Assembly: GCF_900109785.1 (NCBI RefSeq)
Contig: NZ_FOBH01000001.1
Coordinates: 310,001 to 374,000, forward strand
Length of the DNA stretch: 64,000 nt
Direction: 5' to 3'
Source: Nitrosovibrio tenuis
GTDB lineage: Bacteria > Pseudomonadota > Gammaproteobacteria > Burkholderiales > Nitrosomonadaceae
This document shows positions 3,548 through 49,042 of the stretch, piece by piece. Numbering within the stretch: position 1 is the first letter of the stretch; each line of letters begins with the position of its first letter. The translations under genes were made by a program, and so were the position numbers. The notes below the pieces were generated by a model. It saw only the letters and a list, made by a program, of their open reading frames with translations, was not told the DNA's origin and searched no databases.

Positions 3548-4281
3548 TCAATGTTCATGGTATACCGCATAAATATCTCTTCCAGGCTCGCTCCCTTCTG
3601 TTTCAGCTCGTTTACTGAATCTGAGAATACCGTGCGACCCCCGTGCAAGATGTGCACCCGGTCGCATACCGCCTCAACCTCAGACAGGATATGGGTCGAT
3701 AAAATGACGCTGTGTTTCGCGCCAAGTTCGCGAATCAGAGATCGGATATCGCGCATCTGGTTAGGGTCGAGCCCCACCGTTGGCTCATCGAGGATGATAA
3801 CATCGGGACCATGGATAAGCGCCTGGGCAATCCCGACCCGCTGCTGATAGCCTTTCGAGAGCAAGCCGATCAAACGCTCCCTTGTGTTGCCAAGCCCACA
3901 GCGTTGCACAACCTCGTCCAATGCGGCCTCAATTTTTGCCTTTGCCACATGATGCAGCCTGGCGGCGAGCCTCAAGTATTCGCCCACTGTCAATTGGCGG
4001 TAGAGAGGGGGTATTTCAGGCAGATATCCGATATGTGACTTGGCTTCGCGCGGCTTATCCAGCAGATCGACCCCACAGATTTTGATTACGCCAGCGCTTG
4101 GGGCAAGGTTGCCGGTCAGCATGCGCATGATTGTGGTTTTGCCGGCGCCATTGGGGCCAAGGAGGCCCAGCACCTCGCCACGCCTCAGTTCGAGGTTGAC
4201 GTCGTGCGCGGCAGCGCGAGTGCCGAAATAGCGGCACAGGCCCTTAACTGATAAGGTCGGGGAAACAATTTGTTCGGTCAT
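3520..4281 (-). CDS. ABC transporter ATP-binding protein (GldA-like)
   Basis: A 253-aa nucleotide-binding subunit with Walker A GPNGAGKTT (residues 42-50), signature LSKGYQQRVGIAQAL, Walker B VIILDEP followed by the D-loop GLDP, and switch His in LSTHIL. It is the first gene of the minus-strand ATPase - permease - auxiliary cassette and presumably energises the GldF-like permease at the inner membrane. All catalytic motifs are intact. Substrate unknown. Confidence 0.92.
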   Translation of the reverse strand: MTEQIVSPTLSVKGLCRYFGTRAAAHDVNLELRRGEVLGLLGPNGAGKTTIMRMLTGNLAPSAGVIKICGVDLLDKPREAKSHIGYLPEIPPLYRQLTVGEYLRLAARLHHVAKAKIEAALDEVVQRCGLGNTRERLIGLLSKGYQQRVGIAQALIHGPDVIILDEPTVGLDPNQMRDIRSLIRELGAKHSVILSTHILSEVEAVCDRVHILHGGRTVFSDSVNELKQKGASLEEIFMRYTMNIECPGTSLTP

Positions 4282-4542
4282 TAAAACGGGAAAGCAATTT
4301 GGGCTGCATGAAAGCTTTTACGTAATTCTTGCCGGATGCCAAAAGCCCGGTACTCATTCGGAACCTTCGATTTGTCGCGGATCATCTGTTAACGCATTTG
4401 CAAATCCACTTCGCTGCTCTTGCATTCACTTGTTCAGCTGTCCACTTGTGATAAGCGCAAAATATACCTAATATGTGGCCTGTGCCGAAAGACTTAGCCC
4501 CCGCCTTTGCCTTATTTTCAAAATCTTGCCTGGACTTCCCAC

Positions 4543-6270
4543 ATGAGCCTAAAAATTCCCGGCGCATTGTTGCTGCTGACCTTTTTCGCCGCCTGTACGC
4601 AGATGCCAGCCAAGACGGATGTAAAGGCCAACGCTGGCAAGCCTGCAGAGAAGAGCCAAGCAGGACAGCAAAAATTACCCAGTCAGAATTTGACCGAGCC
4701 GATACTGTTCGACTTTTTGCTGGCAGAAACGGCTCTGCAGCGCGGCGATCAGGATCTGGCCATCCGTACTTATCTCAAACTCGCGAGAACCACCCGCGAT
4801 CCGCGCGTCGCGCAGCGCGCCACTGAAATTGCCCTTCATTCACGCCAAGCCATGCCCGCGCTCGAAGCAGCGCGGATATGGGTTGAGCTTGAGCCGGATT
4901 CGGTAAACGCCCGCCAGACAGTGGCGGCACTGCTGGTGAATATTGATCGGCTGGACGAAGCCCGGCCCCATCTGGAGAAATTGCTGGCCTCGGAAGGAGG
5001 AAATGTCGGAGAGGCTTTCATGCAACTCAACGGCGTGCTGATACGCAACTCGAACAAGAACGCCATATTTGAATTGGTGAAGCAGCTTGCTCAACCTTAT
5101 CCCGATCTGCCGGAAGCCCATTTTGCCGTCTCCCAGGCGGCATGGTTCGCCAATCAGTTCGATATCGCGGAGGCAGAGATGAAGAAGGCCCTTGCACTCC
5201 GGCCTGAATGGGAGATTGCGGCAATATATCAGGGGCGGATACTGGCGCGTACCTCCAATGCCAGCGCTATTGAATTTTTCGAAGATTATCTCAAGCGTTA
5301 TCCCAAAGCCAACGATACACGTATCACCTATGCACGGCTATTGTTGGCGGAAAAAAGTTATGTCAAGGCACGCGAACAGTTCCAGCAACTGCTGGCGGAA
5401 AATCCGGGCAATGCAGATGTCGCCGTCGCGGTCGGTTTGCTCTCCCTGGAATTGCGCGATTACGACGTGGCCGAGTTGAATTTCAAAAAAGCGCTGGAAC
5501 TCGATTACAGAGATCCCGGTATGGTGCGCTTCTATCTCGGAGGTATTTACGAAAAAACCCAGCATCCTGATAGAGCGATGGAAGCCTATCGCTCCGTGAC
5601 GAGCGGCAATCAATATATACCCGCGCAAGTCCGGTATGCGCTGCTGTTGAGCAAAACGGGAAAAATAAACGAGGCTCTTCAGCACTTGCAACAGGTGCCG
5701 GTTGCAAACGATCAGCAGCGCGCGCAGTTGGTTATCGCTGAGGCGCAATTATTGAGGGAATCGGGCGCCTATCAAAAAGCTTTCCGTTTACTCAGTAATG
5801 GTTTGGATAAGCTTCCAGACTCGCCGGAGCTTCTCTATGATCACGCCCTCGCAGCAGAAAAAATCGGTAAGACCGATATCATGGAAAAGGACTTACGCAA
5901 GCTGATCCAATTACGACCCGATCATGCCCACGCGTATAACGCTCTTGGGTACGGGCTTGCGGAACATAGCAATCGCCTTGGGGAAGCGCTTGAACTCATT
6001 GAGAAAGCGATTCAACTCTCTCCTAACGATCCCTATATCATGGATAGCCTGGGTTGGGTGCATTACCGTATGGGAAACATCAACCAAGGGCTCAGTTTCC
6101 TCAGGCAGGCGTTCGGAATGAACCCTGATCCTGAAATTGCAGCCCATCTGGGTGAGGTCCTCTGGGTGCAGGGAACAAAGGAAGAGGCAAAGGAAATCTG
6201 GCAATCGGCGCTCAAAAACCACCCCGGCAATGAGGCATTACTCAGTACCATGAAGAAATTCATGAAATAG
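4543..6270 (+). CDS. TPR-repeat lipoprotein
   Basis: A protein of about 575 aa made almost entirely of tetratricopeptide repeats, for example AHAYNALGYGLAEHSNRLGE and PYIMDSLGWVHYRMGNINQG near the C-terminus. The ATG at 4543 is chosen over the upstream in-frame ATG at 4507 because it begins a clean lipoprotein signal peptide, MSLKIPGALLLLTFFAAC, with a lipobox ending in Cys. It is therefore probably anchored to the outer membrane and acts as a protein-protein scaffold. It sits directly upstream of lolB and ispE on the same strand. TPR lipoproteins often precede lolB in betaproteobacteria, but no specific partner can be named from sequence. Confidence 0.85.
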   Translation: MSLKIPGALLLLTFFAACTQMPAKTDVKANAGKPAEKSQAGQQKLPSQNLTEPILFDFLLAETALQRGDQDLAIRTYLKLARTTRDPRVAQRATEIALHSRQAMPALEAARIWVELEPDSVNARQTVAALLVNIDRLDEARPHLEKLLASEGGNVGEAFMQLNGVLIRNSNKNAIFELVKQLAQPYPDLPEAHFAVSQAAWFANQFDIAEAEMKKALALRPEWEIAAIYQGRILARTSNASAIEFFEDYLKRYPKANDTRITYARLLLAEKSYVKAREQFQQLLAENPGNADVAVAVGLLSLELRDYDVAELNFKKALELDYRDPGMVRFYLGGIYEKTQHPDRAMEAYRSVTSGNQYIPAQVRYALLLSKTGKINEALQHLQQVPVANDQQRAQLVIAEAQLLRESGAYQKAFRLLSNGLDKLPDSPELLYDHALAAEKIGKTDIMEKDLRKLIQLRPDHAHAYNALGYGLAEHSNRLGEALELIEKAIQLSPNDPYIMDSLGWVHYRMGNINQGLSFLRQAFGMNPDPEIAAHLGEVLWVQGTKEEAKEIWQSALKNHPGNEALLSTMKKFMK

Positions 6271-7894: not shown

Positions 7895-7969
7895 TGGGGA
7901 GTCGCCAAGCGGTAAGGCACCGGATTTTGATTCCGGCATTCGTAGGTTCGATCCCTACCTCCCCAGCCA
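7895..7969 (+). tRNA. tRNA-Gln (anticodon TTG)
   Basis: A complete cloverleaf: acceptor stem TGGGGAG (7895-7901) pairs with CTCCCCA (7959-7965), discriminator G, and encoded CCA at 7967-7969. The anticodon stem CCGGA/TCCGG encloses a seven-base loop with anticodon TTG at 7927-7929. The T-arm contains GGTTCGATCC. Position between ispE and prs is the conserved location of this tRNA in many beta- and gammaproteobacteria. Confidence 0.97.
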
Positions 7970-27736: not shown

Positions 27737-28735
27737 GTGACAGACATAACTGCAAAAAATCTGAAATCAATCTTGCACTCCAAGCGTGCCAACATCTACT
27801 ACTTGGAGCACTGCCGGGTACTCGTCAACGGTGGACGGGTCGAGTACGTAACCGACGAAGGCAAGCGGTCCCTTTACTGGAACATACCTATCGCCAACAC
27901 CACAACTGTTCTTTTGGGAACGGGCACGTCGATCACCCAGGCTGCCATGCGTGAACTGGCTAAAGCTGGCGTACTGGTCGGATTTTGTGGGGGTGGTGGA
28001 ACGCCGTTGTTCAGTGCGAACGAAATTGACATCGAGATTGCCTGGTTTTCCCCCCAGAGCGAATACCGTCCCACGGAATATTTGCAGCATTGGGTCCAGT
28101 TCTGGTTTGACGATGGCTTACGCCTAGCCGCGGCCCGGGAGTTCCAGCAAATCCGCTTGGAGCGAATCAGCCAGAGCTGGATCAAATTGAGCCGGTTAAA
28201 GAATAATCCAAGCCCGGTTGATATACGCATGCTGGAGCAGTTGTTGAAGCAATCGGCGCAAGGCATCAAGTTAGCCTCGAATCAAACGGAATTGTTGACC
28301 GAGGAGGGACGGCTCACCAAGCAGCTTTATCGCCTGATGGCGGAGGCAACGCGGCACGGAGATTTTGTTCGTAGCCAACGAGGCGACAGCGCCGATACCG
28401 CGAACCAGTTTCTCGATCACGGCAATTACCTCGCATATGGCCTGGCGGCCACGGCCACCTGGGTGCTCGGTCTGCCACACGGTTTGGCGGTGCTGCACGG
28501 AAAAACCCGCCGCGGCGGACTCGTGTTCGACGTGGCCGACCTGGTGAAGGATGCGGTCATCCTGCCCCAGGCGTTCATTTCGACGATGCGGGGCGATGCC
28601 GAGCAGGAGTTCCGGCAGGCATGCATAGAAAGCCTGACGAGCAGCGAGTCGCTGGACTTCATGATCGACACCCTCAAGGCGATAGCGCTCAAGATTGGCA
28701 GGCTCGTCCAAGTCCAGCCCCACGTGCGCGTATGA
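27737..28735 (+). CDS. cas1: CRISPR-associated endonuclease Cas1, type I-F
   Basis: Integrase that, with Cas2-3, inserts new spacers at the leader end of the array. The 332-aa product has the I-F Cas1 start KSILHSKRANIYYLEHCRV, the catalytic Glu region LTEEGRLTKQLYRLMA, and the metal-binding His and Asp in HGLAVLHGKTRRGGLVFDVADL. Start is GTG 27737. Its stop overlaps the cas3 start by an ATGA, so adaptation and interference nuclease genes are translationally coupled. No separate cas2 exists, as expected for I-F. Confidence 0.96.
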   Translation: MTDITAKNLKSILHSKRANIYYLEHCRVLVNGGRVEYVTDEGKRSLYWNIPIANTTTVLLGTGTSITQAAMRELAKAGVLVGFCGGGGTPLFSANEIDIEIAWFSPQSEYRPTEYLQHWVQFWFDDGLRLAAAREFQQIRLERISQSWIKLSRLKNNPSPVDIRMLEQLLKQSAQGIKLASNQTELLTEEGRLTKQLYRLMAEATRHGDFVRSQRGDSADTANQFLDHGNYLAYGLAATATWVLGLPHGLAVLHGKTRRGGLVFDVADLVKDAVILPQAFISTMRGDAEQEFRQACIESLTSSESLDFMIDTLKAIALKIGRLVQVQPHVRV

Positions 28736-31700
28736 ACATCCTGCTCATCTCGCAGTGCGACAAGCGGGCGCTGACGGAAACCCGGCGCATCCTCGACCAG
28801 TTCGGCGAGAGGCGCGGTGAGCGAACCTGGCAGACGCCGATTACCCAGGATGGACTCGACACGCTACGCCAGTTGCTGCGCAAAACCGCGCGCAAGAACA
28901 CCGCTGTTGCCTGTCACTGGATACGTGGGCTCGACCATAGCGAACTGTTGTGGATAGTGGGGGACGCCAGCCGTTTCAACAGCCAGGGGGCAGTACCCAC
29001 CAACACTACCACGCGCAACATCCTGCGCCGTGAGGACGAAAACGATTGGCACACCGGCGAAGATATTCACCTGTTGACCGCGCTGGCAGCGCTGCTGCAC
29101 GATCTCGGCAAAGCCTGCCGCGCCTTCCAGATGCGACTGGAAGGAAAACTCGAGGAGCGCAACCAGTACCGGCATGAGTGGGTGTCGCTACGCTTGTTCG
29201 AAGCATTCGTCGGCGCCGACGACGACGCCAGGTGGCTGGCGCGGCTCGCGGCCCCCACCCCGCGGGATGACGATACCTGGCTGGATCCAAACCGGTTGCA
29301 GCGCGATGGATTGGATGAGGGCGTATCAAGCCCGTTTGCCCGTCTATCGCACGCACCCCTGGCTCAGGCCATTGGTTGGCTCGTGATCACGCACCATCGC
29401 CTTCCAACCTTGCCATGCAACAGCGATGGCAGCCGCGGCACATTTCAGCTCGGGTTGCTGAATAAGATACTGGAACGTATCGACGCCGGCTGGAATGAGC
29501 GGATAGATGAGGGCAATCGCCGCACCCTGCCGTACTATTGGCAATTTCCCCATGGCTTGCCCGTCGCCACGGACCTGTGGCGCAAGCTTGCAGCCCGGCT
29601 CGCACAACGCCTTCTCGCCCTTTGCGCCAAGCCCGGCAAGGGCAACTGGCTGAGCAATCCATATGTGATGCACATATCCAGGCTGAGCTTGATGCTGGCA
29701 GACCATCATTATTCCAGCCTGAAGGGGAAGGACCCAGGACGCGTGGAGGTGCCAAAGGGCTACCCGCTGTATGCCAACACCAATGACGGCGATTTCAATC
29801 AGACGCTGGATGAGCACCTGCTTGGCGTCGCTCAGCACAGTGCGGAAGTAACCCATGCGCTGCCGCGATTCGACGAGCAACTGCCGCGTCTCGCCCGCCA
29901 CAAAGGACTGCGCAGACGATCGCTGGACGAGCGGTTCCGCTGGCAGGACAAAGCCGTGGAAACAGCGGCGGCGATGCGCGCGCGCTCCAGCCACCATGGC
30001 GCCTTCATCGTTAACATGGCGTCCACTGGCTGCGGCAAGACGCTGGCCAATGCGCGCATTATGTACGCCTTGGCCGATGCCGAGCACGGCATGCGCTGCG
30101 CTTTCGCCATGGGATTGCGAACACTGACGCTGCAGACGGGCCGGGCGTTCCGGGATTTGCTGGGCCTGGGCGACGATGAACTGGCCATTCATGTCGGAGG
30201 CTCGGCCAGCCGTGCACTGTTCGAGCACTACGAGCAACGAGAGGAAGCCACGGGCTCGGCGTCGCGGCAGGATCTCCTCGATGAAGGTTCTTATGTCACG
30301 TTTGAAGGCAACCAGGATGCGCATCCGTTGTTGCGCCGTGTCATGCATGATTCGCAGGTGCATTCGCTTCTGGCGGCACCGCTGCTGGTGTGCACCATCG
30401 ATCACCTGACGCCAGCCACCGAGAGCGAGCGCGGCGGCCGCCAGATCGCCCCGATGCTGCGGTTGTTGAGCGGCGATCTAGTGCTCGACGAACCGGACGA
30501 TTTCGATATCGACGATCTCCCCGCGCTTACCCGCCTGGTCCACTGGGCAGGCCTGCTGAGCGCCCGCGTCCTGTTGTCATCGGCCACCTTGCCGCCAGCA
30601 CTGGTGCAGGGGCTGTTCGAGGCTTACCGCAACGGGCGCCAGCACTTCCAGCACAATCGGGGCGGACGGCCGGGCGCTACCAGCTCCGCGCCGGAAATCT
30701 GCTGCGCCTGGTTCGATGAGTTCAACCAATCGCAGGCGGATTGCGCGGACGCATCGGTGTTCGCCATGGCCCACCAATCCTTTGCCGCCAAGCGCCATGA
30801 TCGGCTGTCCAAGGCGGAGGTGCGCCGGCGCTGCCATCTGTTACCGCTAGACCTTGGCGCACTGAAACAGGATCATCATGCCGCGCATTTTGCCGAGCTG
30901 GTGCAAGCTGCTGCAATGAACTTGCATACGCGGCACCACAGTGTCGATCCCCGCAGCGGCAAGCGCGTCAGCTTCGGGCTGGTGCGCATGGCCAACATCG
31001 AGCCACTGGTGGAAGTTGCCCTGGCGCTGTACCGGCTGGGTGCGCCGGAAGGGGCGCGCATTCACCTGTGCACCTACCATTCGCAGTTTCCGCTGTTGAT
31101 TCGCTCGCACATCGAGCGCCAGCTCGACCAGGCGCTGAATCGCCGCCAACCTGAGGCGGTATTCGGCCTGCTGGATATCCGCCAGCGGCTGGATGCAAAC
31201 GACGAACCCGATCATCTTTTTATCGTGCTCGGATCACCCGTCACCGAGGTCGGGCGTGACCACGACTACGATTGGGCCGTGGTCGAGCCTTCGTCCATGC
31301 GGTCGCTGATTCAACTGGCGGGGCGTATTCGCCGCCACCGCGATGGCGAGTGCAAAACGCCGAACCTGCGTGTCTTCGATACCAATTTGCGGCACTTCCG
31401 GGAGCCGGGCAAAGAGGCGTTTTGCAAGCCGGGCTTTGAAACCGCGGTGTTTCGGTTGACGACCCACTCCATGACCGAACTGCTGTCCACCGCTGAGCGG
31501 GAAGTGATCGACGCCCGGCCCCGGATCATGTCAAGTCCACCAGAGGAATTGCAGCCAAAGATGCGGCTGGCCGACCTGGAGCACGCCAGGATGCACCGGA
31601 CCATGCTGGTCCAAATTGCCAGCACGGTTCCCGCTCCTTCCGGCCTGCGTCAGCGCGGGTCGGCCAGAACGGGTCTGCCCTCAGAGCTCAACGCCACGTG

Positions 31701-32112
31701 CTGGTGGCAAATGCCACCAGCCGATGCGCTGCTCACCGCCGTATTGCCGCAGCAGCAGCGTTTCCGCCGGGATGACATCAAGCGCGTGGATTTATTGTTG
31801 CGTCCAACGGGCGATGGGGATGACTACGAGCTGGTTCAACTGATGGACAAGTCGAATGGCCGGTGTGGTGAAAAAGAGTTTGCAGTGGTGGAAACATCGC
31901 ACAACCATCGAATTTCAGACATGGATGTGCAGGGTGCTGGCATCGAGCCCTGGGGCCAGACCGATTATTTGCAGGCATTGATCGAGCTGGCGGACGAGAT
32001 GGACATGCCGCTGGTCAATTGTGCTGAGCGCTTTGGCATTTTGGCTTTGCCGCACAGCGACAACGGTTGGCGCTTTCATCCGGTGCTGGGATTTGCGAAA
32101 GCAAGGGTATAA
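28732..32112 (+). CDS. cas3: Cas2-3 fusion nuclease-helicase, type I-F
   Basis: A 1126-aa protein, the right length for the I-F Cas2-Cas3 fusion. The N-terminal about 100 residues (MNILLISQCDKRALTETRRI) form the Cas2-like domain. An HD nuclease follows (LLTALAALLHDLGKACRAF), then the helicase with Walker A STGCGKTLANARIM and Walker B/DExx variant LVLDEPDDFD, motif VLLSSATLPP, and SLIQLAGRIRRHRDG (motif VI). The ATG at 28732 overlaps the cas1 stop; the longer upstream frame is discarded. It degrades target DNA after recruitment by the Csy complex and joins Cas1 for adaptation. Its stop codon abuts the terminator of an antisense mini-CRISPR. Confidence 0.96.
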   Translation: MNILLISQCDKRALTETRRILDQFGERRGERTWQTPITQDGLDTLRQLLRKTARKNTAVACHWIRGLDHSELLWIVGDASRFNSQGAVPTNTTTRNILRREDENDWHTGEDIHLLTALAALLHDLGKACRAFQMRLEGKLEERNQYRHEWVSLRLFEAFVGADDDARWLARLAAPTPRDDDTWLDPNRLQRDGLDEGVSSPFARLSHAPLAQAIGWLVITHHRLPTLPCNSDGSRGTFQLGLLNKILERIDAGWNERIDEGNRRTLPYYWQFPHGLPVATDLWRKLAARLAQRLLALCAKPGKGNWLSNPYVMHISRLSLMLADHHYSSLKGKDPGRVEVPKGYPLYANTNDGDFNQTLDEHLLGVAQHSAEVTHALPRFDEQLPRLARHKGLRRRSLDERFRWQDKAVETAAAMRARSSHHGAFIVNMASTGCGKTLANARIMYALADAEHGMRCAFAMGLRTLTLQTGRAFRDLLGLGDDELAIHVGGSASRALFEHYEQREEATGSASRQDLLDEGSYVTFEGNQDAHPLLRRVMHDSQVHSLLAAPLLVCTIDHLTPATESERGGRQIAPMLRLLSGDLVLDEPDDFDIDDLPALTRLVHWAGLLSARVLLSSATLPPALVQGLFEAYRNGRQHFQHNRGGRPGATSSAPEICCAWFDEFNQSQADCADASVFAMAHQSFAAKRHDRLSKAEVRRRCHLLPLDLGALKQDHHAAHFAELVQAAAMNLHTRHHSVDPRSGKRVSFGLVRMANIEPLVEVALALYRLGAPEGARIHLCTYHSQFPLLIRSHIERQLDQALNRRQPEAVFGLLDIRQRLDANDEPDHLFIVLGSPVTEVGRDHDYDWAVVEPSSMRSLIQLAGRIRRHRDGECKTPNLRVFDTNLRHFREPGKEAFCKPGFETAVFRLTTHSMTELLSTAEREVIDARPRIMSSPPEELQPKMRLADLEHARMHRTMLVQIASTVPAPSGLRQRGSARTGLPSELNATCWWQMPPADALLTAVLPQQQRFRRDDIKRVDLLLRPTGDGDDYELVQLMDKSNGRCGEKEFAVVETSHNHRISDMDVQGAGIEPWGQTDYLQALIELADEMDMPLVNCAERFGILALPHSDNGWRFHPVLGFAKARV

Positions 32113-32138
32113 AAAACCGGCCGACTTGTAAATCGGCC
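32111..32138 (-). terminator. Intrinsic terminator of the antisense mini-CRISPR
   Basis: On the minus strand GGCCGA (32138-32133) pairs with TCGGCC (32124-32119) around an 8-nt loop, followed by GG and TTTTTT (32116-32111). The T-run exists only in the minus direction, so the terminator serves leftward transcripts, not cas3. Confidence 0.75.
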
Positions 32139-32158
32139 CTGCCTATGCGGCAGTAAAA
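32139..32158 (-). repeat. Degenerate CRISPR repeat psiR2
   Basis: A 20-nt truncated repeat on the minus strand matching 17 of the first 20 positions of the array repeat: stem CTGCC/GGCAG identical, loop GCATA instead of GCGTA, 5' flank TTTTA instead of GTTCA. The 3' handle is replaced by the terminator stem. Confidence 0.8.
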
Positions 32159-32185
32159 AACGAATTGAAAAATAGAATACACAGT
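32159..32185 (-). other. Spacer-like segment (psiS) of the mini-CRISPR
   Basis: 27 nt between the two degenerate repeats (array spacers are 32-33 nt). Starting ACTGTGTATTC, it matches the minus strand at 32275-32259 at positions 1-5, 7 and 9-17. Positions 6 and 18, which are flipped out of type I guide duplexes, are among the mismatches. Pairing is largely lost after position 17. Confidence 0.7.
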
Positions 32186-32212
32186 TTTCTAAGCTGCTTT
32201 TCAGCAGTTTGG
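32186..32212 (-). repeat. Degenerate CRISPR repeat psiR1
   Basis: 27 nt on the minus strand with stem CTGCT/AGCAG and loop GAAA. Relative to the array stem CTGCC/GGCAG the loop-closing C-G pair is changed to T-A on both sides, preserving the 5-bp stem. The handle CTTAGAAA matches 7 of 8 bases of the array handle. Confidence 0.75.
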
Positions 32213-32258
32213 AGAGTTTACATTAAATAAGAGCCTGTAATTTCCTTTTAATAGAATG

Positions 32259-32277
32259 AAAATAGAAAATACAGTGG
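32259..32277 (-). promoter_or_regulatory. Predicted self-target of the mini-CRISPR guide in the csy1 upstream region
   Basis: Minus-strand protospacer-like site 32275-32259 with the type I-F PAM CC at 32277-32276 immediately 5' of it. It lies 46-62 nt upstream of the csy1 ATG. It overlaps the weak -35 (ATACAG, 32269-32274) of a candidate -10 (TACTAT, 32292-32297), so bound Csy complex could block csy transcription. Confidence 0.65.
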
Positions 32278-32320
32278 TTAACAGACAGTGCTACTATTGC
32301 CCATCATAAAGGAGAATAAA

Positions 32321-33625
32321 ATGGACAATATCGATGCGCAACGCGTCGGCGAATTACGGGTACTCATTGCCGGGTTTCTTAAGAAGCGGCTCGATGACAA
32401 GCTCGACAAACTCAAGGACGACGACCCCAAGCGCGGCGAACTCCATGCGCAGTTCACCCCTGCAAACTGGCTCGAAAATGCGGCTTGCCGTGTCAGCCAG
32501 ATTCAGGCAGTGACACATTCGCTCAAGCCAATTCATCCCGACGCGAAAGGCACCAGCTTATACAGCCCGCCGCATGTTCAGCCAATACTGACGGTTGTAG
32601 GTAGCCACTGCCTGGGGGATGGGTTTACAAGCGATGTGGTCGGCAACGCCGCCGCGCTCGATGTGTACAAATTCCTCAAACTGGAACATAGAGGGCGCAG
32701 CCTGCTGGCCTTTTCCCTGGCGCGCGATGCCGATCTGGCGGCGGCGTTGAGTAGCGACCCAGCACAAGCGCAAGCATGGATGGCCGCATTTGCCGGCTTG
32801 ACCGAACGACGCGGCCGGGTGGTCTCGCACACACTTGCCAAGCAACTTTATTGGCTGACAGGCGAAGATCCGCATGACGACGCCAACTTTCACCTGCTCG
32901 CGCCGCTGTATGCCACCTCATTGGCGCATCACGTCTATCAGGCGGTGCAGGACGATCGCTTCAGCGAAGAAGCCATGGCGGCACGCAAAGCCAAAAAAGA
33001 AGGCGAATACAGCGCGCGCCCGGTGCGGCAATATCCTGATCTGGTCATTCAAAAACTTGGCGGAACCAAACCACAGAATATCAGCCAGCTCAACAGCGAG
33101 CGGCGCGGCGATAACCTTTTGTTGGCCTCCCTGCCGCCTGCCTGGCGCTCAATTGACGTGAAGCCACTGCTGGTCTCCAATTCGATGTTCCCGCGCTTCA
33201 GCCGACGCGCGGAGGTGCGGCAATTGGTCAAGGCTCTGCTTGCGTTCCTGAAAGCCGATCCGATACAAAACCTCAAGACCCGGAAACGCCGCATGGAATT
33301 AGTCAACGGCATCATCGATGAGTTCTTGCAATTTTCCGCCGAGCTGCGCTTCCTCCCGTCGGGCTGGAGCCAAACACCGGCGTGCCGTCTCTCCAGCCCG
33401 GAAAAATACTGGCTAGACCGCGATGGCGTCGAATGGGCTCTGACGTCGGAGGGTATGCCGCTGCCCACCGATAATGCCGAGCGCGTCAGCGCGCTGTTTG
33501 CCAACTGGCTTAACGCGCAACTGCGTGACCCGCTGCCCATGGGTGATCCAGAATTTCTGGAATGGCGCAACCGGATGTGCGAAGAGATCAAAGCCGAAGA
33601 ACGGGAGAGCCGTCATGACAACTGA
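32321..33625 (+). CDS. csy1: Csy1 (Cas8f), type I-F large subunit
   Basis: Large subunit of the Csy surveillance complex; with Csy2 it binds the crRNA 5' handle and recognises the CC PAM. The product is about 434 aa. The ATG at 32321 is chosen for its AGGAG at 32310-32314; the frame opens further upstream but without a better signal. Family-like regions include PANWLENAACRVSQIQAVTHS, HIKALL-type Lys-rich stretch YPDLVIQKLGGTKPQNISQL, and NSERRGDNLLLASLPPAW. It is the first gene of the csy1-csy2-csy3-cas6f operon, separated from cas3 by 208 bp holding the mini-CRISPR. Confidence 0.95.
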   Translation: MDNIDAQRVGELRVLIAGFLKKRLDDKLDKLKDDDPKRGELHAQFTPANWLENAACRVSQIQAVTHSLKPIHPDAKGTSLYSPPHVQPILTVVGSHCLGDGFTSDVVGNAAALDVYKFLKLEHRGRSLLAFSLARDADLAAALSSDPAQAQAWMAAFAGLTERRGRVVSHTLAKQLYWLTGEDPHDDANFHLLAPLYATSLAHHVYQAVQDDRFSEEAMAARKAKKEGEYSARPVRQYPDLVIQKLGGTKPQNISQLNSERRGDNLLLASLPPAWRSIDVKPLLVSNSMFPRFSRRAEVRQLVKALLAFLKADPIQNLKTRKRRMELVNGIIDEFLQFSAELRFLPSGWSQTPACRLSSPEKYWLDRDGVEWALTSEGMPLPTDNAERVSALFANWLNAQLRDPLPMGDPEFLEWRNRMCEEIKAEERESRHDN

Positions 33626-34625
33626 GCAAACACGGAACAAAGCGCTGCTGGTGCTGCCGCGCCTGCGCGTGCAAAATGCCAACGCCATTTCCAGCCCCAT
33701 GACCTGGGGATTTCCGGCCATCACGGCATTCACCGGCTTGATGACCGCCCTGACAAGGCTCTTGGGACCTGATGCGGGGATCGCGTTCTACAGTGTCGGT
33801 ATAGTCTGCCACAGCTTTGAGCCCCAGGTGACCCAAGGCGGCTATACCCGAAGTTTTCACCTGACGCGCAACCCGGTGCTGCAAGACGGCAGCACCGCCG
33901 CCATCGTTGAAGAAGGCCGAGCCCATCTCGACATCACCCTGGTATTCGAGGTTGAACTGGCGGCGGCACTGCTGAGCGAGGCCGAACGCGCGCAACTGGC
34001 CGCGCACATCGGCGACGTGCTTGCAGGCATGCGTATCGCGGGCGGCAGCGTCGTGCCGCCACTGCCGGGAAAGTTTCGCAATCCTCCTCGGCCGTCATTA
34101 AAATTGGTGTCTGACGACCCTGAGGAACGCCGCAAAGAATTCCGCAAGCTCAGCCGCCGCTTGCTTCCCGGCTTTGCGTTGGTATCGCGCGACGACCTGC
34201 TGCAAACACGGCTGGCCGAACTGCAAAAGACGACCCTTGGTGCGACCTTGCTGGATGCCTGGCTTGACCTCTCGCGCCTGAACCACCGTGCCGTTCGCCA
34301 GAAAACGGTGGATGAGAAAACCGGGGACACCATTGAGACCGTTGAATGGGTGACCGACAGCCGCCCCGGCTGGATCGTGCCCATGCCGGTAGGATTTGCG
34401 GCGCTCTCTGAGCTGCACGATCCCGGCACCGTGGCTGGCGCGCGCGACCCCAATTTGCCGTTCCAGTTTGTTGAAAGTGTCTATTCGATGGGGCAGTGGA
34501 TCAACCCCCTGCGCCTCACCGATATCAGCGATCTGCTTTGGGAACCCTTCCATGACAGCGGTCTCTACCGTTGCTTCAATGCGTACCAGGCCCCGTCGCC
34601 CTTACCTGTTTCCCCAACCACTTAA
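33615..34625 (+). CDS. csy2: Csy2 (Cas5f)
   Basis: A 336-aa Cas5-family subunit that pairs with Csy1 to cap the crRNA 5' handle. The ATG at 33615 overlaps the csy1 stop by 11 bp, indicating coupled translation; the open frame from 33474 is an upstream extension. Features include [36 protein letters not shown], a central [15 protein letters not shown], and the C-terminal [17 protein letters not shown]. Complete. Confidence 0.95.
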
Positions 34626-34642: not shown

Positions 34643-35677
34643 ATGGCAACTACCGCTCTCAAAACCGCGTCTGTGCTTGCATTCGAGCGCAAACTGGACC
34701 CTTCCGATGCCTTGTTTTTCTCCGGATCTTGGGGTCAACGCACCGCCAGCCAGGAATGGCCCGCCGTGAGCGTGCGGGAAAAATCAGTGCGGGGCACCAT
34801 CTCCAACCGGCTGAAGACCAAAGACCAGGATCCCGCCAAACTCGATGCCGCGATTGAGAACCCCAATCTGCAAACCGTGGACGTGGCCGCCCTCCCCGCC
34901 GATGCCGATACCCTCAAGGTTGGCTTCACGCTGCGCGTACTGGGCGGTGCGGGCACGCCCTCGGCCTGCAACAACGCTGACTACCAGCGCAAACTGCAAA
35001 GCACGGTAAAAGGCTACGTCGATACGCACGGCTTTGCCGAGCTGGCCCGGCGCTACGCCTGCAACCTGGCCAATGGCCGCTTCCTCTGGCGCAACCGCCT
35101 GGGCGCTGAGCAAATTTCGGTGCGGGTAGCTCAACTGGTCAATGGCCAGCCCGCGCAGGCTTGGACTTTTGACGCCCTGGCGTTGTCGCTGCGACACTTC
35201 GATGCGCCATCTGAAGCTGCGGCGGCATTGGCACAATTGAGCGCGCTTATTGCCGAGGGCTTGGCCGGCAACCGCCATGTTCTGCTGCAAGTCACCGCTT
35301 TTGTAGGCATGGGTGCAGGACAGGAAGTGTTTCCTTCGCAAGAACTCATTCTCGATAAGGCAAAGACCACCAAAAGTAAAACGCTATACACCGTCAGCGG
35401 TATCGCCGGCATTCACTCGCAGAAGATAGGCAATGCCCTGCGCTCCATTGACGACTGGTATGCCGGGGCGGAGGAGAATGGCCCTATTCCGGTGGAACCT
35501 TACGGTTCGGTCACCACGCAGGGCAAGGCTTACCGCAAGCCCACCGACAAAGCGGACTTCTATTCGCTTTTTGACAACTGGCTGCTCAAAGACCGGACCC
35601 CTGCGGCGGAGCAACAGCATTTTGTGTTGGCCACGCTGATTCGCGGCGGGGTATTCGGCGATGCGGACAAGGAATGA
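34643..35677 (+). CDS. csy3: Csy3 (Cas7f), backbone subunit
   Basis: A 344-aa backbone protein, six copies of which wrap the crRNA spacer in I-F complexes. The ATG at 34643 has AAGGAG at 34629-34634. It contains [58 protein letters not shown] and [20 protein letters not shown], characteristic of Csy3. It lies 17 bp after csy2 and 3 bp before cas6f. Confidence 0.96.
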
Positions 35678-35680
35678 GCC

Positions 35681-36244
35681 ATGGATCACCACATAGATAT
35701 CGATGTACGGCCGGATCCGGAGTTTCCAGCCCATCAACTCATGGGTGCGCTTTACGCCAAGCTGCACCGGGCCTTGGTAGCAAGAAACAGCAACTGCATC
35801 GGCGTGAGTTTTCCGGGTTTTAATTCACGAGCGCCGCATTTGGGCACGCGGCTGCGCCTGCATGGGAATCTTGCGACGCTTTCGGCTTTGATGGCGAGCG
35901 ACTGGATAACCGGAATGCGTGATCACGTTACACTGATACCGCCAACCCGCGCGCCTGAAAATGCCAAGCATTGCGTCGTGAGACGCGTCCAGGTCAAAAG
36001 CAGCCCGGAACGGTTGCGCCGGAGGTTGATGCGACGCCACGACCTGGACGTCGAGGAGGCCCATCGGCGTATTTCGGACGAGGTTGCCCGGCTGGCGGAC
36101 CTGCCTTACGTGCAATTGCGCAGCACCAGCAGCGGCCAGTCCTTCAGGCTGTTTATCGAGCATGGTCCAGCCCAGTCCCACGCTGTTGCAGGCAACTTCA
36201 ATGCCTATGGGTTGAGCCAGGTGGCCACAATTCCATGGTTTTGA
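35681..36244 (+). CDS. cas6f: Cas6f (Csy4) crRNA-processing endoribonuclease
   Basis: A 187-aa endonuclease that recognises the 5-bp repeat hairpin and cleaves at its 3' base, leaving an 8-nt handle. The catalytic His is probably that of LYAKLHRALVA near residue 30. The arginine-rich helix RVQVKSSPERLRRRLMRRHD binds the hairpin groove. The C-terminus FNAYGLSQVATIPWF is a Csy4 hallmark. It immediately precedes the leader and array. The same enzyme would be expected to cut the mini-CRISPR hairpins at 32.1-32.2 kb. Confidence 0.95.
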   Translation: MDHHIDIDVRPDPEFPAHQLMGALYAKLHRALVARNSNCIGVSFPGFNSRAPHLGTRLRLHGNLATLSALMASDWITGMRDHVTLIPPTRAPENAKHCVVRRVQVKSSPERLRRRLMRRHDLDVEEAHRRISDEVARLADLPYVQLRSTSSGQSFRLFIEHGPAQSHAVAGNFNAYGLSQVATIPWF

Positions 36245-36374
36245 CCATTTTTTAATGGGTCTGAATTTGTTCTTTAAAAATCTATAACTTATGTTCTGCC
36301 TGAATTTTTAAGTGGGTACGCTATTTTCTGTTTAATCTTGTTAGGGAATAGGCATTTGCATGATTTTTGATCCA
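36245..36374 (+). promoter_or_regulatory. AT-rich CRISPR leader
   Basis: 130 bp of AT-rich sequence between cas6f and the first repeat, with T-rich blocks and a small palindrome GACCATT/AATGGGTC at its start. Weak promoter-like boxes TTGTTC (36267-36272) and TATGTT (36290-36295) have a 17-bp spacer. The only degenerate repeat lies near the far end of the array, agreeing with the leader being here. Confidence 0.75.
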
Positions 36375-39300
36375 GTTCACTGCCGCGTAGGCAGCTCAGA
36401 AAAGACCCCGACCCCGGCCCCGCCGAGTTGTTGAGTTCACTGCCGCGTAGGCAGCTCAGAAACGCTACAGACAAAGCAGCGATACCGCCAAATCGTTCAC
36501 TGCCGCGTAGGCAGCTCAGAAATTTTGGGGGTCCGCTGGCAGTGCCTTTTAACAGTTCACTGCCGCGTAGGCAGCTCAGAAATGTTGACATTGGCGTTGA
36601 TTTGCGCTTGCGACGTTCACTGCCGCGTAGGCAGCTCAGAAACCAAGGCGCGAACCATAACCCCCCGATTTAAGGTTCACTGCCGCGTAGGCAGCTCAGA
36701 AATTATCGAGAATAGAGTTTGCATAGGAGCTACCGTTCACTGCCGCGTAGGCAGCTCAGAAAGTTGATGGGCTTTGAACCTCGCCCGTTACCGAGTTCAC
36801 TGCCGCGTAGGCAGCTCAGAAAATTGATCCTCGGGGTCATATGCAATAATCCGGGTTCACTGCCGCGTAGGCAGCTCAGAAACGAGTGAAGCGGCTAAGC
36901 TAACGGACGGAATGAGTTCACTGCCGCGTAGGCAGCTCAGAAACTCAAGCAAACCCTCCTCGCCCTCTTCCATTCTGTTCACTGCCGCGTAGGCAGCTCA
37001 GAAATTAAAGCGGAGTTCGATTTTTGGTCCGGCTGCGTTCACTGCCGCGTAGGCAGCTCAGAAAGTCCGGGAGTTGCACATCGCGCACATCATTTGGTTC
37101 ACTGCCGCGTAGGCAGCTCAGAAATTTAAGCCGATACAGAGACTTTCCCGCTTTTCGTTCACTGCCGCGTAGGCAGCTCAGAAAAACCCAGCCGACCATC
37201 TGCCGCATTCTGAGCGGTTCACTGCCGCGTAGGCAGCTCAGAAAACCCGGTGACCGTATCCATCCAATTATCAGGCGTTCACTGCCGCGTAGGCAGCTCA
37301 GAAATATCACTGAGGCGGCTTTATGCCGTTGGGGAAGTTCACTGCCGCGTAGGCAGCTCAGAAATCTTTCGGCTTGGTTTTTATCAACGGCATTACGTTC
37401 ACTGCCGCGTAGGCAGCTCAGAAATTGACGCGATAAAGAAAGCCCGGCACGTTTCCGTTCACTGCCGCGTAGGCAGCTCAGAAAATTTTAAAAAGCCGAG
37501 TTCACCTTTAAGCGATGTTCACTGCCGCGTAGGCAGCTCAGAAATCTGTGCTTGCTGGGTCAAAGATCACTATTGAGTTCACTGCCGCGTAGGCAGCTCA
37601 GAAACTACAGCATTGTTATCAAGTGGCTTTATGGAAAGTTCACTGCCGCGTAGGCAGCTCAGAAACGGAACTTGTTTAGGTTGTTAATCTCGGTGCCGTT
37701 CACTGCCGCGTAGGCAGCTCAGAAAGTCTCAGCCCGGCTATGCGTGGCGCTATTTCAGTTCACTGCCGCGTAGGCAGCTCAGAAATACTGAAACCTTTAT
37801 TACGAACAATAAAGGGGGTTCACTGCCGCGTAGGCAGCTCAGAAAGGTCGGAAAGCTCGGTAGCTACAACGTCAGAAGTTCACTGCCGCGTAGGCAGCTC
37901 AGAAACATGCGCCGCAGTTCCAGCGTGACCGCATAAGGTTCACTGCCGCGTAGGCAGCTCAGAAATTTAAAAATGTTTGAGAAGTTTGAGAAAAATTGTT
38001 CACTGCCGCGTAGGCAGCTCAGAAATAATCCGGGGTAGCTCATTTCTCGTTCGCCAAGTTCACTGCCGCGTAGGCAGCTCAGAAAATCCAGGTCCGCATA
38101 GATGCAAGATGCGCCACGTTCACTGCCGCGTAGGCAGCTCAGAAAAGCTCAAGCGGGACCGAGTATCACTATCTGGCGTTCACTGCCGCGTAGGCAGCTC
38201 AGAAAAATCCAAATTCGTGCCGTAGTGATAGCGGAAAGTTCACTGCCGCGTAGGCAGCTCAGAAAATCACGACTACCAGGACACACCAGAGCAACCCGTT
38301 CACTGCCGCGTAGGCAGCTCAGAAAAGCCAGAATAAAATAAGCGCAGCGCCCCATTTGTTCACTGCCGCGTAGGCAGCTCAGAAACTGTTGCCGGACGCG
38401 GTTTAAACGCACTCACAGTTCACTGCCGCGTAGGCAGCTCAGAAATCTGGCATTTTTCCCCCGCTTGCAACCGACAAGTTCACTGCCGCGTAGGCAGCTC
38501 AGAAAGTTTGGAACATGCTGAAAAGTCTGCCGAAGAGGTTCACTGCCGCGTAGGCAGCTCAGAAAATTAATAACGGAAATTTCGGATACATACCCGAGTT
38601 CACTGCCGCGTAGGCAGCTCAGAAATTGCCCATGATCGTCACAGGTCCGTACGGCAGGTTCACTGCCGCGTAGGCAGCTCAGAAAATGTTTTGACCGCCG
38701 AACATAGGGAAACCAAAGTTCACTGCCGCGTAGGCAGCTCAGAAATCGATAACTACAATAGGGCGAATGGCGCGGTCGTTCACTGCCGCGTAGGCAGCTC
38801 AGAAATGAGGTTAATTTTCAAAAGTTCTTCAGTAATAGTTCACTGCCGCGTAGGCAGCTCAGAAACATAGGAATCGCTGAAAGCAGCATGATATAAAGTT
38901 CACTGCCGCGTAGGCAGCTCAGAAATGAGACCGCGTGCTGTTCCACGTGCGCGACTGGTTCACTGCCGCGTAGGCAGCTCAGAAAATTGCGCGTACCTCG
39001 ACGCGCCGCTTGAAACGGTTCACTGCCGCGTAGGCAGCTCAGAAATGGTTGAGTCGGCTGCGCAAAAAGAATCCGCTGTTCACTGCCGCGTAGGCAGCTC
39101 AGAAATAGTATGAGACTTGAGGTGTACTAATAGTGTAGTTCACTGCCGCGTAGGCAGCTCAGAAATCAGATCACCCCCGTGACCATGCGAAGCATTTGTT
39201 CACTGCCGCGTAGGCAGCTCAGAAAGTCAGGCAGTTGCACATCGCGCACATCATTTGGTTCACTGCCGCGTAGGCAGCTCAGAAAGATTGAAAGGGACCG

Positions 39301-39947
39301 CAAACCCTTCACGTAGTGTTCACTGCCGCGTAGGCAGCTCAGAAAAATATAGAAAACCAGCGCACACAAGCGGCGGCGTTCACTGCCGCGTAGGCAGCTC
39401 AGAAAGATAGGCGGCGCTCTGTTGCTGGCGTTCGTGCGTTCACTGCCGCGTAGGCAGCTCAGAAAACGTAGTACCGATACAGGAGGGCGGGTCAAATGGT
39501 TCACTGCCGCGTAGGCAGCTCAGAAATATTCCGGGCGGGTTGAGGCGCTCGCTTGGCAGTTCACTGCCGCGTAGGCAGCTCAGAAATTGCCATCATTGGA
39601 GAGCCTTTATTCGTATCGAGTTCACTGCCGCGTAGGCAGCTCAGAAATTTCCCGCCGCGCCGAATCTTTCAGGGATTTTGTTCACTGCCGCGTAGGCAGC
39701 TCAGAAACCGATCAGCCCCCGCCAACCTTGCGAAGCATTGTTCACTGCCGCGTAGGCAGCTCAGAAAAAGACAACGGCAGGAGTTGTAGCCTCGGGATAG
39801 TTCACTGCCGCGTAGGCAGCTCAGAAAAAGTGCTGCGGCTGTGATCAGCGCCATACTTGGTTCACTGCCGTGTAGGCAGCTCAGAAAATCAGGCCCCAAC
39901 ACAGACCGATTGAGCGATCGTTCACTGCCGCGTAGGCAGCTCAGAAA
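36375..39947 (+). CRISPR. Type I-F CRISPR array, 60 repeats and 59 spacers
   Basis: 28-bp repeats start GTTCA, form the Cas6f hairpin CTGCC/GGCAG around loop GCGTA, and end with handle CTCAGAAA. The first repeat is at 36375-36402 and the last at 39920-39947. Spacing is 60 bp except for five 33-nt spacers (starting at 36883, 36944, 37605, 39466 and 39587); the other 54 are 32 nt. All repeats I compared are identical except the penultimate (39860-39887), with C12 changed to T, marking the trailer end. Spacers 12 (37065-37096) and 48 (39226-39257) are near duplicates. Confidence 0.99.
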
Positions 39948-47118: not shown

Positions 47119-47298
47119 AAAGTCCCCGCAAATGCCGTCAGGCCATTATCTTGAACCTTAAGGTCCAAGGCGGTCACTTACCGGATGCATCAGGCGCTTC
47201 CGTATAGGACGCGCACAACAGCATCGCTATGGTTCGTAACCAGTTCTCAAAAAGTTGGTTCAAAGAATATAGGCCTAAAACGAACACCGCAGGGAACA
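47119..47298 (-). ncRNA. ssrS: 6S RNA
   Basis: On the minus strand, CCCTGCGGTGTTCG near the 5' end and GGCATTTGCGGGGA near the 3' end form the closing stem. Before the 3' arm lies CCTTGGACC-TTAAGGTTCAAG then ATAATGGCCTGACGGC, closely following the E. coli 6S region around CTTGAACCAAGGGTTCAAGG and the GCCTGCGGCGGCAT that follows it. The length (about 180 nt) and the location immediately downstream of zapA match the conserved zapA-ssrS arrangement. 6S RNA binds sigma-70 RNA polymerase in stationary phase. Ends are approximate. Confidence 0.88.
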
Positions 47299-48330: not shown

Positions 48331-48454
48331 GCAGGCGACCCAACCGCCCAGTCCATCACTCCTCTTGGCACAACTTGCTCCACCCGCTGCGCTATTTCCG
48401 TTGCGTTATCCTCTTAAACCATTATTGCCCGGTTCTGGTAGAATTGCGGCCACG

Positions 48455-48694
48455 TTTGAGGTGCCCGGCTGCGTATCAGCCGGGTTAAACGGGAACCAGG
48501 TTGGTAAGCTCTGAACGTATCTCCTCCATGGAGATTGGTTTTGAATTTCCTAAAGATGCCTGGGCTGCCCCCGCAACGGTAAGCAGGTGTGGACGTATCA
48601 ACAATGCCATTTCTTATGGCATGAAGCCACTGTGAATTCTTCAATTCATGGGAAGGCGTTACGTCAAGTCCTGCGAGCCCGGATACCGGCCTTG
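48455..48694 (+). promoter_or_regulatory. Cobalamin (adenosylcobalamin) riboswitch
   Basis: Hallmarks appear in order: GGTGCCCGGCT...AGCCGGG and TTAAACGGGAA, then GCCTGGGCTGCCCCCGCAAC with GGTAAGCAGG, AAGCCACTG, GGGAAGGCG, and finally GCGAGCCCGGATACCGGCC. The B12-box-like GAGCCCGGATACC near 48675-48687 is diagnostic. It lies about 350 nt upstream of a BtuB-like receptor on the same strand and should lower its expression when B12 is abundant. Confidence 0.95.
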
Positions 48695-49042
48695 AATGCG
48701 TTTGGAAATACCGCGTGGGGCGGTCTCTGATCGATATCCTTTCGATATCTCTGCGCTCGTCGATTCCTCAGAGGCTCCTTAACGAGCTCCTTAGCGCTCC
48801 TTGGCGCCACTTAGCGGCGTTGCCGGGTGCCACGTATTTCCTTTGTCATCGTGCTGGACCGCGGGTCCGCCGGATAAAACAATCCTGTATGCCTGTTTCT
48901 TGGAATAAGCCGGCAGCTTACTGTCGTCTTCTGCATATCTGAGACTTTTATCCATCGGTAAAGATCTATGGCGATCCATGGCGGGTAACCCATGCATCTC
49001 GCGCCGACGCCGAGATGAAGCTCAACTGTGAAGGAATTACGA
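48695..49042 (+). promoter_or_regulatory. Long leader between the cobalamin riboswitch and the receptor gene
   Basis: 348 nt without a gene. It holds three copies of CTCCTT (48775-48780, 48787-48792, 48797-48802), which are complementary to Shine-Dalgarno-type sequence and could pair with AAGGA at 49031-49035 just before the receptor start. Whether this is the riboswitch expression platform is a guess. Confidence 0.4.

Follow-up and report, generated by a model that had tools for sequence, protein, structure and literature searches.

A toxin-free antisense mini-CRISPR between cas3 and csy1 of a Nitrosovibrio tenuis type I-F locus is a likely autorepressor of the csy operon

Introduction

What could be the function of two repeat-like hairpins that lie between cas3 and csy1 of a type I-F CRISPR-Cas locus, on the strand opposite to the cas genes, and enclose a single spacer-like segment? 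The window analyzed here is the whole stretch of 64,000 nucleotides from Nitrosovibrio tenuis (contig NZ_FOBH01000001.1, positions 310,001 to 374,000). The original prediction, made without database searches, interpreted the element as an autorepressor of the csy operon. Guide RNAs that repress cas genes, CreR, have been named for subtypes I-B, I-E and V-A (PMC13131331), or for type I and V-A (PMC12737573), and their primary description is reported to be that of Liu et al. 2023 (Cell Host Microbe). We suggest that the window element is a type I-F CreR, i.e. a toxin-free two-repeat mini-CRISPR, antisense to the cas genes, that autorepresses the csy operon; we consider this reading likely (probability about 0.85), with its transcription, processing, repression and feedback being inferred.

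Methods

The csy1 loci were gathered by a related-locus search (19 loci) and by genome searches, and 88 loci were scanned up to 1400 nt upstream of csy1 on both strands. The scan rule consisted of the hairpin and handle of the first degenerate repeat (psiR1) and of the second degenerate repeat (psiR2), and had been shaped on elements previously seen by eye. Since the rule asked for the psiR1 handle, the conservation of this handle does not count as independent evidence. Neither the target nor the PAM nor the loss of the psiR2 handle was required by the rule. The count of 27 distinct loci excludes L084, which has the spacer of L029, and L031, from the same genome as L003. The 27 loci are not all independent, as L003/L004 and L025/L028 share seeds and some loci are kin.

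Guide-target pairing was scored at CC-flanked sites of both strands, only in the stretch from psiR1 to the csy1 start, over 15 positions (1-17 without 6 and 12). The choice of the best site inflates the matches at these 15 positions, not at 6, 12 and 18, and the inflation is bounded by the control with swapped spacers. For L028 the downstream ATG with the Shine-Dalgarno (SD) sequence GGAG in front was taken as the start (score 13/15); use of the ATG 15 nt further upstream cuts the target off (score 5). No in-frame ATG was found for L057, L074 and L078, and the distance was taken to the first aligned codon. The array-spacer control consisted of the spacers after the first 58 of the 59 exact repeats of the window array, and the sigma70 scan used a hexamer matrix.

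Results

The window holds an intact type I-F locus, with six cas genes scoring above the NCBIfam cut-offs and followed by a CRISPR array (Table 1). The array repeat is GTTCACTGCCGCGTAGGCAGCTCAGAAA, and the array spacers are mostly 32 nt long. The assigned csy1 start is supported by the related Nitrosospira loci L003 and L004, in which a stop codon lies directly 5' of the homologous ATG. The cas3-csy1 gap of 208 nt contains the mini-CRISPR, antisense to the cas genes. Rfam additionally detected a riboswitch, a 6S RNA and a tRNA in the window, all of them ordinary.

Table 1. Features of the window discussed in the text (positions are those of the window)
Feature	Position	Strand	Remarks
cas1	27737-28735	+	TIGR03637
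cas3 (I-F helicase/nuclease)	28735-32112	+	TIGR02562, 1257 bits
Intrinsic terminator of the antisense RNA	32111-32138	-	stem 32138-32119, then GGTTTTTT
psiR2, degenerate repeat	32139-32158	-	TTTTA-CTGCC(GCATA)GGCAG; repeat stem retained, 3' handle lost (3/8)
Spacer-like guide segment, 27 nt	32159-32185	-	pairs with 32275-32259 at 15/17
psiR1, degenerate repeat	32186-32207	-	hairpin CTGCT-GAAA-AGCAG and 5' handle CTTAGAAA
Candidate -10 of the antisense RNA	32217-32222	-	TGTAAA (TATAAA in L031 and L004); alignment by eye, inferred
Guide target (protospacer), 17-nt paired part	32259-32275	-	sole perfect site in the genome
CC, type I-F PAM	32276-32277	-
Candidate extended -10 of csy1	32289-32297	+	TGCTACTAT; not significant against shuffles in the sigma70 scan
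csy1 (Cas8f)	32321-33625	+	TIGR02564, 326 bits
csy2 (Cas5f)	33612-34625	+	TIGR02565
csy3 (Cas7f)	34643-35677	+	TIGR02566
csy4 (Cas6f)	35681-36244	+	TIGR02563; presumed processing nuclease for the guide
CRISPR array	36375-39947	+	60 repeats by Rfam (59 exact and 1 variant)
tRNA	7895-7966	+	Rfam
6S RNA	47119-47298	-	Rfam
Cobalamin riboswitch	48442-48708	+	Rfam

The psiR1 handle, CTTAGAAA at 32193-32186, is identical in 7 of 8 letters to the array handle CTCAGAAA. The element does not qualify as an ordinary array, because psiR1 has a 4-nt loop and a diverged flank, psiR2 keeps 3 of 8 handle letters and the spacer has 27 nt instead of 32; as a CreR should, it has one spacer between two degenerate repeats and adjoins the cognate cas genes. 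The search for terminators found one, with 0.4 expected from shuffles, and the terminator is also present in two other Nitrosospira loci. The fold of the antisense RNA (z = -3.35) beats all 200 shuffles, and both hairpins and the terminator form in it. In the predicted fold the U-run that precedes psiR2 also pairs with the handle end and the first bases of the spacer, and this pairing, if real, could hinder the guide. No good -35 for the antisense RNA was seen by eye in the window.

The guide segment matches its target at positions 1-5, 7 and 9-17, and the target is located 45 nt upstream of the csy1 start, with 43 nt between the PAM and the ATG. When 32220-32320 was shuffled 20000 times with dinucleotides preserved, a CC-flanked match of at least 15/17 never arose, and 6 shuffles gave such a match without the CC; the best of the 58 array spacers tested as controls reached 10/17 with CC and 11/17 without it. 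The target pattern has one perfect site in the 3.1-Mb genome, and the reversed control pattern also has one site. With up to 2 mismatches allowed, the genome has one further site, namely the guide's own gene; it is preceded by AA, not CC, and therefore should not be targeted. Apart from it, no second target (e.g. upstream of cas1) was detected at this tolerance. A 13/17 site near 36310, in the array leader region, was rejected; it has no CC and was taken as a chance match in AT-rich DNA. The guide thus has the PAM-flanked partial complementarity to the region in front of its own cas operon that is expected from CreR. Anatomy and PAM are directly visible in the sequence, and the original prediction held for the antisense mini-CRISPR (hairpin with handle, 27-nt spacer, second hairpin and terminator) and for the 15/17 match with the I-F PAM. 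It was corrected for the hairpin loop, which in psiR1 is a 4-nt GAAA, unlike the 5-nt loop of the array repeat.

Comparison with other type I-F loci

The scan matched 28 of the 88 loci, always antisense to csy1 and never in the sense direction. No element was found by this rule in the other 60 csy1 loci, among which some have little or no cas3-csy1 gap and others come from split hits or carry only a distantly related csy1. In all 27 distinct loci the best site between the element and csy1 was CC-flanked and on the guide's strand, and it was unchanged when all 17 positions were scored or no PAM was required. The own guides scored 11-15 of 15, and swapped spacers scored 7.3 on average (702 pairs); seven swapped pairs reached at least 11, four of them between kin (L003/L004 and L025/L028). 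Of 8100 shuffled regions, 4 equaled the score of the locus's own guide.

The numbers of loci matching at positions 1 to 12 were 27, 27, 27, 27, 27, 5, 25, 22, 25, 26, 24 and 5, and at positions 13 to 24 they were 24, 22, 21, 22, 20, 5, 12, 10, 13, 9, 8 and 8. Positions 6, 12 and 18 match in 5 of 27 loci each, near the 25% chance level, with nearly fixed neighbours (mismatch excess at 6 and 12 compared to 7-11 and 13-17, Fisher p = 8e-22). Pairing fades after position 17, with 4-13 matches of 27 beyond position 18. In type I complexes the Csy3 backbone flips out every sixth nucleotide. The mismatches at 6, 12 and 18 are the signature of such flipped-out nucleotides, as expected from this general knowledge. 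There are 20 different 5-nt seeds among the 27 loci, so that what the loci have in common is the pairing rather than a single sequence; the comparison shows selection on the guide-target pairing.

In the 12 loci with a known array repeat, psiR2 keeps 0-5 of the 8 handle letters and psiR1, with its handle fixed by the search rule, 7-8. Guide lengths vary from 14 to 34 nt in the 27 loci. As a side observation, lengths around 14, 20, 26 and 32 seem favoured, as would result from the loss of whole Csy3 subunits, but this is statistically weak (Rayleigh p = 0.01 for period 6, but 0.018 for period 7, with kin not removed).

The closest relatives permit a finer comparison. Hairpins, terminator and candidate antisense -10 are conserved between the window, L004 and L031, the latter with a Csy1 81% identical to that of the window; the seed varies (ACTGT vs GTTAT), and the target varies with it. 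The exact hairpin pattern occurs once each in 3 of the 61 genomes searched. These are also the only 3 of 23 Nitrosospira genomes that have it, namely those with csy1 81-100% identical (the window's own and two at 81%), and it is absent from 4 further genomes of the genus with csy1 39-43% identical. The expectation stated from the window alone, that hairpins, seed and target would co-vary in related loci, was therefore met (27/27 CC-flanked targets, with seed and target shifting together in Nitrosospira), and the fading of pairing after position 17 and the flip-out of position 6, both noted for the window, fit the data of the other loci.

Near and far targets

The elements fall into two classes by the distance from the target to the csy1 start, 13-74 nt in the near class (13 loci, including the window) and 121-553 nt in the far class (14 loci). 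No recurring SD with a mini-ORF was found between the target and csy1 in the near class; there was none in 12 loci, L038 being outside that scan. When the SD rule was loosened and the target included, L018, L022, L024 and L029 yielded unrelated candidates, and the remaining 9 near-class loci yielded none. In the 43 nt between the PAM and the ATG of the window the sole SD is that of csy1, without any creT-like SD and mini-ORF. In this respect the window fits a toxin-free CreR, where only recognizable toxins of the SD plus mini-ORF kind are excluded. CreTA, a related module in which the guide (creA) represses a toxic RNA (creT), is matched in part: a CRISPR-like creA with a partially matching, PAM-flanked target is present, but a creT with strong SD and mini-ORF between the target and the next gene is not.

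In the far class, a strong SD with a mini-ORF was detected between the target and csy1 in 9 of 14 loci (L005, L019, L020, L021, L030, L041, L055, L057 and L063). Tandem AGA codons were seen by eye in six of the nine mini-ORFs (L005, L019, L020, L021, L057 and L063), for instance in those encoding VTIHHMIRR, VIGYHMIRRA and MLCVHRIRRA. The AGA mini-ORFs resemble CreT and suggest apparent type I-F CreTA modules, with creT as candidate genes only; among these loci, L019 is from a Burkholderiales MAG and L020 from a Hydrogenophaga MAG. The other five far-class loci are L056, L066, L069, L078 and L083. Small ORFs with similar starts (MNKKYVKEETFTLKR... and MAKRYVRKETLTVSR...) occupy the toxin position in L066 and L083, without any Pfam family at or above the cut-off, and L066 also has a weak SD with a TTG candidate. 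It is possible that these ORFs are a small-protein output of the switch; the L083 ORF continues in frame into csy1, so that L083 may belong to the near class.

Other genes were observed in these gaps. A 74-aa DUF2188 protein is encoded beside the creT-like mini-ORF in the 553-nt stretch of L057. Genes resembling protein toxin-antitoxin systems lie on the minus strand of three cas3-csy1 gaps. That of L018 has a RelE gene (positions 4405-4719, matching the first half of its profile), and that of L019 encodes a nucleotidyltransferase domain (4275-4562). PIN and Phd-like genes are located in that of L023 (4038-4702, minus strand), with the Phd match below the Pfam cut-off and no mini-CRISPR found.

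Candidate csy1 promoters

The candidate extended -10 of csy1 has counterparts at the same distance in L003 (TGTTAGTAT) and L004 (TGCTAGTAT), so that all three Nitrosospira loci have a TGnTA(C/G)TAT box of extended -10 shape 23-24 nt ahead of csy1. With a spacing of 17 nt from this box, a -35 would fall inside the target. The box is present in only 4 of the 13 near-class loci and, outside Nitrosospira, by the pattern used, only in L082 of 10. In the window, the sigma70 scan placed its best site away from the target, and 96 of 200 shuffles equaled that site. Among the 13 near-class loci only L024 and L082 reached at most 2/200, with the -35 adjoining the target in both. With another candidate, TTAACA-18-CATCAT, transcription would begin at or past the csy1 ribosome site. 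A csy1 promoter overlapping the target is thus without statistical support in the window, and read-through from cas1-cas3 is a possible further source of csy1 transcripts.

Discussion

We propose the following mechanism for the window element. An RNA transcribed opposite to the cas genes would carry both repeats, and Csy4 would cut behind the psiR1 and psiR2 hairpins to release one guide RNA with a crRNA handle, the 27-nt guide and a 3' hairpin. Csy1-4 would assemble on this guide and bind the CC-flanked site in front of csy1. With pairing ending at about position 17 the R-loop would be too short for Cas2/3 cleavage, so that the complex is proposed to stay on the site and block csy1-csy4 transcription. 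Binding without cutting is likewise inferred from the guides of 14-34 nt with pairing that ends near position 17. The block would be relieved, and more Csy protein made, once the complex is taken up by anti-CRISPRs or by a large number of crRNAs from the array (60 repeats).

Feedback through crRNA competition and anti-CRISPRs has been described for CreR (PMC13131331, PMC12948488, PMC12737573). A type I-F CreA of the same slot represses its target by a guide with 17 of 20 pairs; changes at positions 2-5, 7-9 and 13-17 abolish the repression, position 1 has a partial effect, positions 10, 12, 19 and 20 are not needed, and repression returned with compensatory changes at the three positions where these were tried (PMC10097628). 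Type I-F1 complexes with spacers of 14-176 nt bind, and Cas2/3 is triggered only by R-loops of full length or more (PMC7296934). The original reading of the element as a csy autorepressor is supported, and transcription, Cas6f processing and repression remain inferred. That reading had missed that CreTA was already known in the same slot of Acinetobacter I-F loci (PMC10097628), and that in about half of the related loci the target is far from csy1, in most cases with a creT-like gene in the interval.

The best surviving alternative, which we consider unlikely, is that the element is the antitoxin (creA) of a CreTA module, its guide repressing an unrecognized toxic RNA between the target and csy1 and thereby addicting the cell to the Csy complex. 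In favour of it, the slot is that of CreTA in Acinetobacter I-F loci (PMC10097628), and the far class has its nine loci with strong SD and mini-ORF, six of them with tandem AGA. An unrecognized start is also possible by eye at window position 32288 (GTG CTA CTA TTG), with ATG TTA GTA TTG in L003 and GTG CTA GTA TTG in L004. However, CreTA is disfavoured because only 43 nt separate the PAM from the csy1 ATG and there is no SD but that of csy1. No SD precedes the GTG/ATG start, and the frames that open there end differently: in the window the frame runs into csy1 in frame, in L003 it ends out of frame beyond the csy1 start, and in L004 it stops after ten codons (by eye). A further ORF of 17 codons, seen by eye at 32256-32309, also lacks an SD, and no equivalent start was seen in L003 and L004.

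We regard as very unlikely that the antisense RNA is self-acting or a sponge, with csy1 as a bystander. In the self-acting variant the target lies between two divergent transcripts, and the complex is therefore proposed to repress the antisense promoter; in the sponge variant the hairpins would occupy Csy4 and Csy3, as the phage RacrIF1 does (PMC10651486). The conserved terminator and hairpins, and a possible antisense -35 that overlaps the target in L004 (by eye), agree with this explanation. Against it, 9 of 14 far-class loci have a creT-like gene behind the target, as in published CreTA, and a PAM-flanked target is not needed by a sponge. A decayed CRISPR remnant with a chance match to the csy1 upstream region, suggested by the degeneration of both repeats, is practically ruled out by the shuffles (0/20000) and by the retention of a CC-flanked match with the 6-nt pattern in 27/27 loci.

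Returning to the CreR reading, a bolder hypothesis would place it in a wider frame, and we lean towards it with reservation. The cas3-csy1 slot of many Beta- and Gammaproteobacteria I-F loci would be an antisense, Csy-guided OFF switch with an exchangeable output (the csy operon, the RNA toxin CreT, possibly small proteins). CreR and CreTA would be interconvertible states that gain or lose the toxin, the guide and target co-evolving under the 6-nt pairing rule. The near and far classes in one slot make the step from a brake (CreR) to an addiction module (CreTA) directly testable.

If the CreR reading is true, type I-F, to which the Csy complex belongs, also has RNA-guided CRISPR autorepression, and this would suggest how I-F loci balance the supply of Csy protein against that of crRNA and respond to anti-CRISPRs. 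The natural guide-target pairs of the 27 loci record the base pairs that the I-F complex seems to need for binding without cutting (1-5, 7-11 and 13-17).

A toxin-free I-F CreR was not found in the literature searched, including the relevant passages of PMC8616872, PMC10651486 and PMC10013973, where no I-F CreR is described; an I-F case in Liu et al. 2023 cannot be excluded. Like CreR, the window element is a mini-CRISPR for its own cas genes without a recognizable toxin gene, and its guide has partial complementarity to the region in front of the cas operon, which in the named CreR is the cas promoter region. It differs from the named CreR by its type I-F locus and its position in the cas3-csy1 gap, and its class by guides of 14-34 nt with a 6-nt mismatch period across loci. 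The haloarchaeal I-B CreTA likewise has degenerate repeats, psiR1 having diverged further than psiR2 (PMC9458426), and its toxin uses rare AGA codons (PMC12737573), which recur in the mini-ORFs of six far-class loci here. It differs by its subtype, and the earlier CreTA modules are located around cas6 (PMC10097628). The I-F CreTA of Acinetobacter sp. WCHA45 and the window element have in common the cas3-csy1 slot, the divergent guide, psiR1 and psiR2, and the CC PAM. The WCHA45 guide forms 17 pairs with positions 6, 11 and 18 unpaired (11 instead of 12), its target is downstream of the promoter, and the gap of about 400 bp between target and csy1 holds a toxic RNA gene (all PMC10097628). In the window the corresponding distance is 45 nt, with nothing toxin-like recognized. 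Taken together, and within the literature searched, CreR of subtypes I-B, I-E and V-A and an I-F CreTA in the same slot are known, with no toxin-free I-F version among them.
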